From Brevibacillus humidisoli (lineage in GTDB: Bacteria > Bacillota > Bacilli > Brevibacillales > Brevibacillaceae), in contig NZ_CP087263.1 of assembly GCF_020923435.1 (NCBI RefSeq), positions 4,359,970 to 4,423,969 on the forward strand: a DNA stretch of 64,000 nt, read 5' to 3'. The position numbers and the translations under genes were made by a program. Position 1 is the first letter of the stretch. The number at the start of each line of letters is the position of its first letter. Below, one piece after another: positions 19,417-23,270 of the stretch. The notes under the pieces are model-generated. The model made no database searches and was not told the DNA's origin. It saw nothing but the letters and a program-made list of their open reading frames with translations.

Positions 19417-19529
19417 TCCTGATGAACTGGTACCGACGAACCTTTCGGGATACGCCTCTGTTCTGATAAGGTTGTCTTAGAGATAGAGAAGAAACCATAA
19501 CGAGAGATACCGTAAAAGGGATGGAGCAG

Positions 19530-21053
19530 ATGAAAAAACTACTGACGCTTGTCGCAGCGCTGTGTCTGATCACCCCGGCCCCTGTCGGATTGGCGAGCCC
19601 AGCCGTTCAATCGCCAATCCAACTGGATCTCAACGAAGATGGGACGCCGGAGTACCTGATTTCTGTTGAACGCCGCTTCAGCAGCATGTCGATTGAGCAG
19701 GAAACGTATCAGCATATCGCGTACACGCACTACTTGTTTCGAGAAGCAGGACATACAGACGCCACGTTTCAGCTGACGATTGCCAAAACACCACAGCAGG
19801 ATGCCATGTTCTTCGCCCGGCAAGGGGAGACGATGTGGCCGATGGCTACGACTGTGACGATCCAGGCAAACGAAACGGGACTGGCCTACCGTTATGTGGA
19901 GAACAAGGATCAGGAGACATTTCTGGGCGAATGGACGACCTGGCAGTCTGCTGAAAGCACAGCCGTTTTGCCGCTGCGCCCTGTTTACATGCAGGGAAAC
20001 CGCCTGCATGCGCGTCTTGGACCTGTGAACGTTTTTGAACCACAGGGGCACACTGTTTTGAAGCAGATCAACCGCGTGGCGCCACAGCGGATCCTCAACC
20101 AGTACGATACCCGATGCCAATTCCAGCTTCCCGGCAACGAGCAGACGGTATCGGAGACGTGGGGCATTTTGACTCATCGGCCATTGGTCAACTGGGCATT
20201 TCCACGCGCCACAGACAACGCCCGCAAAATCGATATCGACACGTTCCGTAAACTGCTGTTTGATGGTTTGTACGATGTCACGCCACTCACCTATTCACCA
20301 TCGTCGAAAGAATCGTATTACCGCAATCCAGCCAACATATCTGGACTTTACCACGTCAACGATGCGTCACAAGCACAGTATGGAAGCCTGGTGCAAGTGA
20401 TCCTGACACACTTGGCATACAGGGCGGTGAACGAGCAGAACGAACAAGGATACTGGCCGACATATCCCCAATCGACCTGGCTGTTCACAGATTACCAAAT
20501 CGACGCCAAATACTTTGACAATAGGCGCAATGCTGACAATGCCACCTTTTTACTCAGATTCAACCGTCAATATCCAGATCCTTTGTTTGAAGAATCATTA
20601 AAAAAGTGGGAAGCGTTCCTCTACTACTATATTGATCAAACGGGTTTACAGACGTCCAATCAAGGGTACTTGATCCCTGATTACGTCGACAGTACCTTTA
20701 CACACTTTTCCCATACGGCGTTAAACCATCAAATGGCGATCATCAACTATCTGTTGGAAAGCAACCTGTACAACCCGGATGAGACGAAACGGAGATACAT
20801 CCAGGCCCTTCTGCAAGGTATCGAGGATACACAAGATCGTTGGATCAAGCCCGATTCAGACCTGTACTATGCACTTTACCGGGATTTGCGACCCCATAGC
20901 TACCCCGATTACCACAGTTTGACATTAGAAGATATGATGCTGACTCAGTCGCTATTGCGGCAAAATCACCTGCAGACGAGTCAGGCGCTGGATAAGCTGA
21001 TTCAGTCCAAACAAGCGTGGATGGAAGTACAGCGCTTAAAAGCAGCTCCCTAA
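19530..21053 (+). CDS. Uncharacterised secreted protein
   Basis: A 507-residue protein with a clear signal peptide (M-K-K-L-L-T-L-V-A-A-L, hydrophobic to ~20, likely cut at G-L-A-S). The mature part begins with a region calling to mind an EF-hand-like L-D-L-N-E-D-G-T-P-E-Y. The second half is rich in Trp, Tyr and Asp, with alternating helices that could form an alpha/alpha toroid, as in glycan-active epimerases and lyases; this is a fold guess only. I do not recognise a family. ATG 19530 has AAAGGGAT at suitable distance; ATG 19521 is in frame but too close to it. A strong terminator follows at 21126. Confidence 0.7.
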   Translation: MKKLLTLVAALCLITPAPVGLASPAVQSPIQLDLNEDGTPEYLISVERRFSSMSIEQETYQHIAYTHYLFREAGHTDATFQLTIAKTPQQDAMFFARQGETMWPMATTVTIQANETGLAYRYVENKDQETFLGEWTTWQSAESTAVLPLRPVYMQGNRLHARLGPVNVFEPQGHTVLKQINRVAPQRILNQYDTRCQFQLPGNEQTVSETWGILTHRPLVNWAFPRATDNARKIDIDTFRKLLFDGLYDVTPLTYSPSSKESYYRNPANISGLYHVNDASQAQYGSLVQVILTHLAYRAVNEQNEQGYWPTYPQSTWLFTDYQIDAKYFDNRRNADNATFLLRFNRQYPDPLFEESLKKWEAFLYYYIDQTGLQTSNQGYLIPDYVDSTFTHFSHTALNHQMAIINYLLESNLYNPDETKRRYIQALLQGIEDTQDRWIKPDSDLYYALYRDLRPHSYPDYHSLTLEDMMLTQSLLRQNHLQTSQALDKLIQSKQAWMEVQRLKAAP

Positions 21054-21190: not shown

Positions 21191-21275
21191 TTTCTGCTAG
21201 GTCTCTTGGCGGACCTATCAGAAAAATTAAATCGAGTAAAAAGATATTCACAAAAATAAAAAAAGATGGTAAACT
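21191..21275 (+). promoter_or_regulatory. Palindrome and putative promoter of the regulator-peptide cassette
   Basis: The 34-base inverted repeat 21191-21224 has arms TTTCTG-N2-AGGTC and GACCT-N2-CAGAAA around an 8-base centre. Downstream, TTCACA (21247-21252) and TAAACT (21270-21275) with a 17-base spacer form a candidate sigma-A promoter in AT-rich DNA. The palindrome lies before the -35 element, a position suited to an activator. That the adjacent regulator binds it is inferred. Confidence 0.45.
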
Positions 21276-21328
21276 GGGCGAAAAGGAAAAAACAGTAATT
21301 GCGGGGAGCCGACTGGAAGGTGGGCATA

Positions 21329-22624
21329 ATGGAGGATCGTGCAGACAACATCCTGTACACAACGATTGGTGAAGTAATCAGGCGGTTACGGGAGAAGGCT
21401 AATCTGACCCTGACGCAACTGGCACATTTGAGCGGCATCAGTAAGGCGGCGATCTCCAAGATTGAAAACGGAGAAACCAAACGTCCGGAATTTCGAACCA
21501 TCAAGCCGATCGCAGAAGTACTGGACATCCCGCATGAACAAATCGTCGAGTCTTATATAGAAGTAGAGCAGAGGATTGATGTGCTGCAGGAATTGCTGCT
21601 GGACGCGATCAAATTATCAAATAAGAGCTTACTTTCAAAAATTGCTTTGCGCTTCCTGCAATCTCCATATGAAGAAAGCTACACGCTGATTGAACGGCTC
21701 TATCAATTAACCAATGAGGTACGTGATGGGGAGATCAGATTGTCGTTGTATGATCTCATCATCAAGTATGCCAGAGAACGTGGGATGCAGAGATTCCTGG
21801 CCAAAGGATTGCTGCAAAAATATCTGATCGAACGACTCGACCTGAAAAAGCTGGAAGATTCTTATCGAGCTGGAGAAGAGATTTTACACTATACCGATTT
21901 CTTGTCCCGGGAAGAGAAGATCACTTTCTACTTCAGGATGGGGCTTCATGCTCACAACATCAAAAGATATAAAGAATGTATTGAGTTGTGCATGGCGGGG
22001 CTGGCGGAGGACACCGCAATCAATGAGCTAAAAGCGAGAGCGCATTTGGCGATGATAAACTCCCTGCTGCTGATTGGCCAATACGATGAAGTAGAGCGTC
22101 AGCTGAAAGTGTACGAAACATATCGCTTCGGATTTGTGGAGGAATCGGCCAAACTGACGCGTGCCATTGTGAAGGCCAAAAAGCGTGAGTACGACCGGGC
22201 CGTTCCCATGTTAAGAGCATGCCTCGATGACATCAGTGAACACTCCCGAATCCATGTAGTCAACGAACTTCTGTCGATCTATTTGGAGATTGGGGATTTG
22301 GAGTCTGTTTCTTCGCTTCTCCATACAGAAGACAGAGTCTTGAACTTTGATGTGAATACGCCTTACAAGCATGCCTCTCTAGGTGCATACTATCGATATA
22401 AAGGAGCTTACCAGTTTCGGGCGGGGATGTTTGAAGAGGGGATGAAAAGCTATCAGACCAGCCTGCTCGCATACGGGGAAATCAGTGCGCACCAGGAGAT
22501 AACGGAATGTATGAACGATATTTTATCTTTTTACACGACACACGGCAAATCGATAGACTTTTACTCTGTTCAACAACTGAAAGAAGTATATAATAAACTT
22601 ATGAAGAAAAAGGAAAAAAAGTGA
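21329..22624 (+). CDS. HTH regulator with C-terminal helical (TPR-like) repeats, RNPP-like
   Basis: A 431-residue protein. Residues 14-68 form an HTH-XRE domain (I-G-E-V-I-R-R-L-R-E-K...L-T-Q-L-A-H-L-S-G-I-S-K-A-A-I-S-K-I-E-N-G). The remaining ~360 residues are almost all helical with repeated ~35-40-residue units resembling tetratricopeptide repeats. This build is that of peptide-responsive regulators (NprR, PlcR, Rgg, AimR types). GGAAGGTG precedes ATG 21329, preferred over upstream in-frame codons. The gene is visibly more AT-rich than its neighbours, suggesting transfer. A secreted-peptide gene starts 10 bases after its stop, which supports peptide sensing. Confidence 0.75.
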   Translation: MEDRADNILYTTIGEVIRRLREKANLTLTQLAHLSGISKAAISKIENGETKRPEFRTIKPIAEVLDIPHEQIVESYIEVEQRIDVLQELLLDAIKLSNKSLLSKIALRFLQSPYEESYTLIERLYQLTNEVRDGEIRLSLYDLIIKYARERGMQRFLAKGLLQKYLIERLDLKKLEDSYRAGEEILHYTDFLSREEKITFYFRMGLHAHNIKRYKECIELCMAGLAEDTAINELKARAHLAMINSLLLIGQYDEVERQLKVYETYRFGFVEESAKLTRAIVKAKKREYDRAVPMLRACLDDISEHSRIHVVNELLSIYLEIGDLESVSSLLHTEDRVLNFDVNTPYKHASLGAYYRYKGAYQFRAGMFEEGMKSYQTSLLAYGEISAHQEITECMNDILSFYTTHGKSIDFYSVQQLKEVYNKLMKKKEKK

Positions 22625-22634
22625 GGTGAGAACA

Positions 22635-22778
22635 GTGAAAAAAATGCTCCTGATGATGATGATGGCTATTGCCCTGCTTTTCTCTGCTAGTGTTTCCGCC
22701 GCCGATACAACGGACTCTACTAGTGAATCGGGCGATAAGGTTTACGTGAAACCGTATGTGTATGATCCAGGCCACTAA
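22635..22778 (+). CDS. Small secreted peptide, candidate pheromone precursor
   Basis: A 47-codon gene, GTG start, with GAGGTGAG at 22623-22630 as ribosome site. The product begins M-K-K-M-L-L-M-M-M-M-A-I-A-L-L-F-S and has a signal-peptidase I type end A-S-V-S-A, leaving about 24-25 residues with a polar spacer (D-T-T-D-S-T-S-E-S-G-D) and the C-terminal segment K-P-Y-V-Y-D-P-G-H. This layout (signal peptide, variable spacer, short C-terminal peptide) is that of Phr, PapR, NprX and AimP precursors. It lies directly behind the HTH-repeat regulator and before a terminator. The mature peptide is not known; the C-terminal 5-9 residues are the likely signal. Confidence 0.7.
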   Translation: MKKMLLMMMMAIALLFSASVSAADTTDSTSESGDKVYVKPYVYDPGH

Positions 22779-22797
22779 ACGACAATGATCGTACGCA

Positions 22798-22824
22798 GGG
22801 ACGCTGATCCAGCGTCCTTTTTTC
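22798..22824 (+). terminator. Terminator of the regulator-peptide cassette
   Basis: GGACGCTG (22799-22806) and CAGCGTCC (22810-22817) are perfect complements around a 3-base loop, followed by six T. Confidence 0.9.
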
Positions 22825-22911
22825 TGTTTCGGCTCATCTTTGTGTGATCCTGTCTGCCGAGTGGACGATAACAGTAGGAACCAAAGGAACGATTTGACAA
22901 AGGTCGTTTTC

Positions 22912-23015: not shown

Positions 23016-23270
23016 TTATCGGCCTTGGGATACAGGCAGATCGGACACACAGTCTTGGCAAACAATTTTGCCTTTGAAGTATGTAACTTTGTCAGCGTTG
23101 CCACAGAAGATACAGGCAGGTTCGTACTTCTTCAGGATAATGCGCTCACCGTCAACGTAGATCTCCAAGGCATCTTTCTCTGCGATACCCAGAGTACGGC
23201 GCAGCTCGATCGGAATGACCACGCGTCCCAGCTCGTCTACCTTTCTTACGATACCAGTGGATTTCATCAT
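23016..23270 (-). CDS. abrB: Transition-state regulator AbrB, variant with CxxC pairs
   Basis: An 84-residue protein. The N-terminal swapped-hairpin DNA-binding domain (K-S-T-G-I-V-R-K-V-D-E-L-G-R-V-V-I-P-I-E-L-R-R-T-L-G-I-A) is nearly identical to B. subtilis AbrB. The C-terminal part differs: it carries C-I-F-C-G-N and C-Q-D-C, so a small zinc knuckle may replace the usual oligomerisation domain. AbrB represses stationary-phase genes during exponential growth. Two ATG codons (23270 and 23267) are possible. Its promoter region bears a Spo0A box, so repression by Spo0A at sporulation onset is expected. Confidence 0.93.
   Translation of the reverse strand: MMKSTGIVRKVDELGRVVIPIELRRTLGIAEKDALEIYVDGERIILKKYEPACIFCGNADKVTYFKGKIVCQDCVSDLPVSQGR

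Follow-up and report, generated by a model that had tools for sequence, protein, structure and literature searches.

The window analysed here, a stretch of 64,000 nucleotides from a Brevibacillus humidisoli genome that consists of one 4.9 Mb contig, contains a regulator gene and, 10 bases after its stop codon, the GTG of a small gene for a putative propeptide. Both reading frames, an HTH_3 match in the regulator and the tail of the small product (KPYVYDPGH) were recovered, in agreement with the original prediction of an HTH and helical-repeat regulator followed by a secreted-peptide gene. A terminator common to both genes had also been proposed, and a single terminator-like stem indeed lies 3' of the peptide gene. 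The features of the locus are given below.

21191..21224, no strand: 34-base palindrome, 13-base arms with one mismatch and an 8-base loop
21247..21275, plus strand: promoter-like sequence TTCACA-17-TAAACT, conserved in the orthologue of the genus-mate G001
21329..22624, plus strand: gene of the regulator, a putative pheromone receptor; ATG start, TGA stop, 431 aa, HTH and nine TPR-like helical hairpins
21362..21544, plus strand: HTH DNA-binding domain of the regulator, about residues 12-72, from HTH_3 and HTH_31 matches and the predicted structure
21944..21946, plus strand: codon of Leu206 in the receptor, which aligns with consensus TPR position 9 and occupies the column that follows the last peptide residue most closely
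22623..22629, plus strand: Shine-Dalgarno-like GAGGTGA of the peptide gene, found by eye; overlaps the regulator stop and ends five bases before the GTG
22635..22778, plus strand: propeptide gene; GTG start, 47 codons, basic N-terminus, hydrophobic segment, polar spacer, conserved C-terminus
22746..22775, plus strand: conserved C-terminal decapeptide VKPYVYDPGH at the end of the propeptide
22797..22826, plus strand: shared intrinsic terminator; stem at 22797-22819 with 10 pairs, then a T-rich tail

A second in-frame start of the peptide gene is possible at the GTG at 22626 and would yield 50 aa. The pair is flanked by the gene of a 510-aa protein on one side and by a convergent AbrB-type gene (23016-23270) on the other, with a 16S rRNA 2'-O-methyltransferase gene upstream and a methionyl-tRNA synthetase gene beyond. 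The 510-aa protein (window positions 19521-21053) had no match in Pfam or NCBIfam. It has a signal-like N-terminus and shares the interval between the rsmI-type and abrB-type genes with the cassette; its end is kept in G001.

The unit has a GC content of 0.450 compared with 0.521 for the window, and 2.9% of 312 segments of the same size are this low. The low GC is real, but the idea that the unit was acquired did not hold up: in G001 the orthologous pair occupies the same site, flanked by the end of the same upstream gene and by abrB, and because of this synteny a recent acquisition is unlikely. The palindrome that had been noted before the promoter is a genuine repeat (0 of 200 shuffles scored as high). 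However, it is absent from the 77%-identical orthologue in G001, and a genome search allowing up to 3 mismatches returned one further site (with 3 mismatches) versus 5 for a control pattern. For these reasons we discarded it as a conserved operator of the regulator. The promoter match is weak when taken alone since six such sites occur in the scanned region where 3.1 are expected; used as a marker of a regulon, the conserved promoter block found its own site only in the whole genome at up to 3 mismatches. The terminator stem has a fold z of -3.0.

Pfam recognised HTH_3 in the regulator with an E value of 1.5e-14. All TPR matches were sub-threshold, and neither an NprR nor a PlcR model was among the domain-model matches listed for it. 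The AlphaFold2 model, built with 26 sequences, reached a pLDDT of 89.0 and a pTM of 0.78 and comprises the HTH and nine helical hairpins. A Foldseek search with this model gave AimR in the first row (E 3.4e-5, TM 0.40, rmsd 19.8), in a listing that also holds PlcR, Rap, OGT (TM 0.48) and other TPR proteins. In VIA-align, NprR with NprX came first (Z 20.0, rmsd 6.1, 282 aligned residues), with unrelated TPR proteins close behind. An HTH joined to a TPR-like peptide-binding domain, one trait of RRNPP receptors, is present in the predicted fold, which other TPR proteins match with close scores. The modelled fold agrees with RRNPP receptors but is not decisive: since the eukaryotic TPR proteins LGN and OGT obtain structural scores near or above those of RRNPP receptors, function is not proven by fold alone. 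Docking by structure prediction, recommended in the original prediction, was unsuccessful. An AlphaFold2 run on a B. laterosporus relative with a tethered peptide left the latter unplaced, with pLDDT values of 35-45 for the last 25 residues and 51-54 for the rest of the added peptide.

At E <= 1e-15, 28 of the 39 host-family genomes contain relatives of the regulator, and a single genome can have as many as 18 matches when fragments are counted. At E <= 1e-30 the family was present in 27 of the 398 genomes sampled from the class, all 27 belonging to the host family, and at E <= 1e-80 in 18 of the 295 genomes sampled from the Paenibacillus apiarius family. The genera concerned are Brevibacillus, Paenibacillus and Chengkuizengella. 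Seven plasmid records from Brevibacillus and Paenibacillus carry the regulator over at least 80% of its length; an eighth, from Alicyclobacillus, matches the HTH only. The regulator is also whole in the Brevibacillus phages SecTim467 (L122, 2492-5927) and Sundance (L123, 2504-4398), and phage Jenst (L124, 2492-2992) has a receptor stub of 166 aa only. The own genome encodes a full-length paralogue with 36% identity (L002, G000:C1:4113788-4115002), whose peptide is signal-like at its N-terminus and falls into the Trp-ending class (MKKWLSV...VVLVEPDW). Peptide tails in genus-mates are VYDPGY (G001) and VVDPGH and LDDPGH (both G002). A further large HTH protein of the own genome (L005, G000:C1:366790-367095, in a 445-aa frame) matches the regulator in the HTH region only and could be another peptide receptor.

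Peptides were picked downstream of the regulators by position, length, a basic residue and a hydrophobic stretch only, a rule that is blind to the C-terminus and relies on hydrophobicity, not on SignalP. A peptide was picked at 105 of 113 non-redundant full-length regulators, compared with 20/113 on the reverse strand and 8/339 inside the regulator, so the small gene is hardly a product of chance. By the same rule, 8 of 113 regulators of the first set and 18 of 84 of a held-out set have no peptide. Pro occupies position -3 in 85 of the 105 picked peptides and in none of the controls (0/20 on the reverse strand, 0/8 inside the regulator); the 20 of 105 without it include some evident mispicks. 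Peptide entropy is lowest at -1 to -4 and dips again at -10 (Ile/Val) and -7 (Tyr), and these outer dips suggest a signal of up to ten residues. The mature signal of the window pair probably lies within VKPYVYDPGH and would then be 7-10 residues long. When receptor pairs of 40-50% identity were compared (n=948, without the six loci with doubtful picks L067, L089, L096, L099, L109 and L126), their peptides were 65% identical in the last four residues versus 7% at -11 to -20. The loci L067 and L109 have, besides the doubtful pick, another ORF that carries the motif. In a comparison of the peptide gene with its G001 counterpart, the codons for Asp, Pro and Gly each differ at the third base only and thus synonymously. 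Two further RRNPP traits are present: an adjacent small propeptide gene with a secretion signal, as judged by the hydrophobicity rule, and a conserved C-terminus versus a variable spacer. The original prediction was to be abandoned if homologues had no small secreted ORF or did not keep its C-terminus; at the level of sequence, a small ORF with a signal-like N-terminus follows most homologues and its C-terminus is conserved. These downstream ORFs, the C-terminal conservation and the predicted fold argue for the suggested RNPP layout with its own putative secreted peptide.

In some propeptides the motif is duplicated (DPDW...DPDW in L090 and L098), and at L036, L088 and L033 a second propeptide-like ORF lies 170-180 bases past the regulator. 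Many Paenibacillus peptides (L229, L243, L262, L274, L300, L305) have a short tail beyond the Trp, for example PWITNF or DNGWSIQ, and here the mature signal may perhaps not be the extreme C-terminus.

With regard to known systems, the pair is very probably an RRNPP-type receptor-pheromone pair of the published candidate subfamily or cluster 08 of Paenibacillaceae. The available text of PMC10075063 describes cluster 8 of Paenibacillaceae as a novel candidate that occurs on chromosomes, plasmids and phages, and assigns one AloR-AloP pair and one cluster-8 pair to a plasmid of B. laterosporus LMG 15441. On this plasmid, pBRLA33, BRLA_RS22615 is 49% identical to the regulator over 416 of 431 aa and is accompanied by the tail DYDPGY; the other pBRLA33 pair has the AloP-like tail EHGVGG. 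By elimination among the annotated pBRLA33 genes, BRLA_RS22615 is the cluster-8 member. The published criterion for assigning clusters to known receptors is 30% identity over 80%, and the regulator exceeds both values through BRLA_RS22615, itself cluster 8 by elimination. According to the available text of PMC12700828, subfamily 08 stands beside AloR, AimR falls into the same nine-TPR clan, and the peptides of subfamily 08 have a DPG motif. This motif is present in the window peptide as DPGH, and the earlier remark that the tail was not recognised from a described signal has to be corrected accordingly.

In addition, the window pair and subfamily 08, as far as the latter is described in the text available, share a receptor with adjacent propeptide, an HTH with nine TPR, a host among the Paenibacillaceae (in the NCBI sense, which includes Brevibacillus), a distribution over chromosomes, plasmids and phages, and DPG; no mechanistic difference was found in these descriptions. 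A search of the open-licence literature found no experimental validation of a subfamily 08 member. The window pair is a real and probably functional member of this predicted, apparently untested candidate subfamily. Its kind is already in print as a prediction, to which the window adds a clean chromosomal case whose 47-codon propeptide ends in a defined tail.

The arbitrium system AimR-AimP of Bacillus phages is similar in its first Foldseek row, its HTH and nine TPR-like motifs and, according to the available part of PMC6458997, a peptide anchored by a conserved C-terminus. It differs in the tail itself, and in the window family the last residue varies with the receptor. For phi3T AimR, the one AimR compared, there was no significant sequence relationship to the regulator and no usable alignment. 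NprR-NprX and PlcR-PapR of the Bacillus cereus group also consist of an HTH and TPR receptor beside its own propeptide gene, with peptides that differ from the window tail. NprR came first in the structural alignment, where many TPR proteins score close, and PlcR was in the Foldseek listing.

Co-variation of regulator and peptide in related genomes, which had been proposed as a check, was observed, in that peptide class tracks the receptor tree and residue 206 tracks the last peptide residue, with few independent events. Peptide class requires 11 changes on the receptor tree versus a mean of 38.1 for shuffled labels, and 0 of 200 shuffles were as low (98 labelled of 113 rows, 15 rows being without a class). 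Taken alone, this agreement may reflect common descent. In one clade of 24 rows chosen from the tree, position 206 distinguishes peptides with a G ending from those with an H/Y ending in 24 of 24 cases. The runners-up in this clade, 210 and 203 with 207 close, are all located on the same helix. The prediction for 206 arose from this G versus H/Y contrast in one clade and was set down before the held-out set was opened. That set comprised 117 candidates, which after removal of 4 short sequences and 29 duplicates left 84 regulators, 66 of them with a peptide; its rows are not independent of descent. When the last letter was taken literally, H/Y/F/M endings occurred with L206 in 6 of 9 cases. The exceptions were F with I, F with V and M with V, the latter two carrying a tail after Pro-Trp. 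All 28 W endings occurred with a residue other than Leu, 25 of them with a small residue and 3 with F. No G-ending peptide was present in the held-out set, and the other 29 endings were outside the prediction.

Typing by motif, which allows a tail after the Trp, was decided on after the held-out set had been opened. Typed in this way, held-out peptides with P/T-G-[HYFL] went with L206 in 10/10 cases and those of the Trp type with non-L residues in 50/50. Over all typed rows, L206 accompanies P/T-G with H, Y, F, M or L endings in 60/60 cases, F or Y at 206 accompanies G-ending peptides in 11/11, and a non-L residue accompanies the Trp type in 86/88 (76 V/I/A/T/G/S, 6 Phe, 4 Asn). These counts omit 38 untyped rows, 14 old and 24 held-out, among them an HPF peptide with I206. 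Position 206 ranked first among the columns scanned by sensitivity plus specificity. The volume contrast at 206 (r -0.30, p 0.003) does not survive correction for 404 columns, and volume and hydropathy contrasts over all columns brought other columns to the top, e.g. G14 and Y165. Rows L067, L089, L096, L099, L109 and L126 were omitted from these contrasts, and L086 was omitted from another column scan too. We recounted independent pairs with a better tree from which the columns around 206 were omitted and near-alike rows of the same type were thinned, leaving 120 rows. Six pairs lay on supported branches, about 4.8 of them as predicted and 0 opposite (sign test p about 0.06), which makes the 206 rule a testable candidate for a recognition rule built on few independent events.

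Aligned to the consensus TPR 8bu0, L206 pairs with the second Asn of AWYNLGNAYY, which is TPR position 9, and N244, present in 92% of typed rows, aligns with position 9 of the next repeat. TPR position 9 touches ligands in other TPR proteins. In AimR, the available text of PMC6458997 places the C-terminal Ala of the peptide between V198 and L199, with N202 helping to hold its backbone. The spacing of V198/L199-N202 is like that of L206-N210 in the regulator, as a similarity of spacing and not as an established correspondence of residues. We tentatively propose, at slightly less than even odds, that a shape-complementary pocket reads the very C-terminus and that the contact at 206 keeps paralogous channels in the cell and its phages apart. 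If this is true, a single change, L206F or L206V, should shift the preference among DPGH-, DPQG- and EPDW-type signals. The 206 rule would turn the avoidance of cross-talk among many paralogous channels into a one-mutation question. The Trp- and Gly-ending classes and this rule are absent from those published descriptions of subfamily 08 that were consulted.

Overall, we interpret the window pair as a peptide quorum-sensing cassette of the RRNPP type, with a probability of about 0.9. The propeptide would leave the cell by the Sec route and be cut down to a short pheromone from its C-terminus, within VKPYVYDPGH, which an oligopeptide permease would re-import; the genome has 18 OppA-type matches. 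Once inside, the pheromone would sit in the concave groove of the TPR-like domain and alter the DNA binding of the regulator, with a presumptive sign of regulation and presumptive targets. Its Asp-Pro-Gly-His end would act as an anchor, and Leu206 of the receptor would help to read the terminal residue. Alternatively, the small ORF could encode a secreted or membrane-active peptide (bacteriocin-like, a toxin or a surface peptide) that is the target of the regulator and not its ligand. A signal-like N-terminus, the operon shared with the regulator and the tethered model without docking would all be compatible with such a target. However, the spacer varies freely, only the last 4-10 residues are kept, and peptide class tracks both the receptor tree and a residue of the TPR-like domain; because this is the pattern of a ligand, we regard a target peptide as improbable. 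That the ORF arose by chance or is untranslated is hardly conceivable: it is very short, but it has the GAGGTGA, is present at 105/113 loci well in excess of the controls, and shows synonymous changes in conserved codons.

The quorum-sensing pair could also belong to the AloR-AloP subfamily of Paenibacillaceae instead of subfamily 08. According to the available text of PMC7425212, AloR-AloP of Paenibacillus polymyxa has the same gene order, an HTH with divergent TPR, overlapping hosts, Spo0E neighbours and many paralogues per genome. A profile comparison of the regulator with the AloR-like receptor of pBRLA33 gave an E value of 2e-4, but a probability of 47%. This protein, counted as AloR-like by its tail and by elimination, was used in place of AloR13, whose primer from PMC7425212, as given in the text available, had 0 matches in the scanned genome contigs. 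In pairwise comparison it matched the regulator with a BLASTP E value of 0.26, short of 30% over 80%, compared with the 49% over 416 aa to the other pBRLA33 receptor. Moreover, AloP-type tails (SHGRGG; ...EHGVGG) are without the Pro motif and differ from DPGH. An AloR-AloP membership is therefore very unlikely, and we retain subfamily 08 for the pair.

Because many relatives precede a Spo0E-like gene, control of sporulation timing is the likeliest role of the family, a role that we do not extend to the window copy. An ORF with a Spo0E-like signature lies on the same strand within 900 bases downstream at 21/113 loci of the first set and 41/83 of the held-out set; in the control, which covered any position on the reverse strand, it was found at 7/113 and 0/83. 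No Spo0E-like gene is located downstream of the window's own pair. A Pfam model confirmed four Spo0E-like proteins, three of them downstream of the pair (in L008, SecTim467 and Sundance) and the fourth at another site on pBRLA33. The downstream gene in L008 belongs to the copy of a genus-mate. An influence on sporulation has been proposed in general for phage-borne systems, as stated in the available text of PMC10075063. Copies on phages and plasmids that neighbour Spo0E-type genes point to mobile elements influencing sporulation through this same signalling language. In both SecTim467 and Sundance, the receptor is accompanied by a Spo0E-like gene and a peptide of the DPGY/NPGY type. Directly past the Spo0E-like gene, SecTim467 has a second regulator that on visual inspection looks similar to the AloR-like receptor of pBRLA33.
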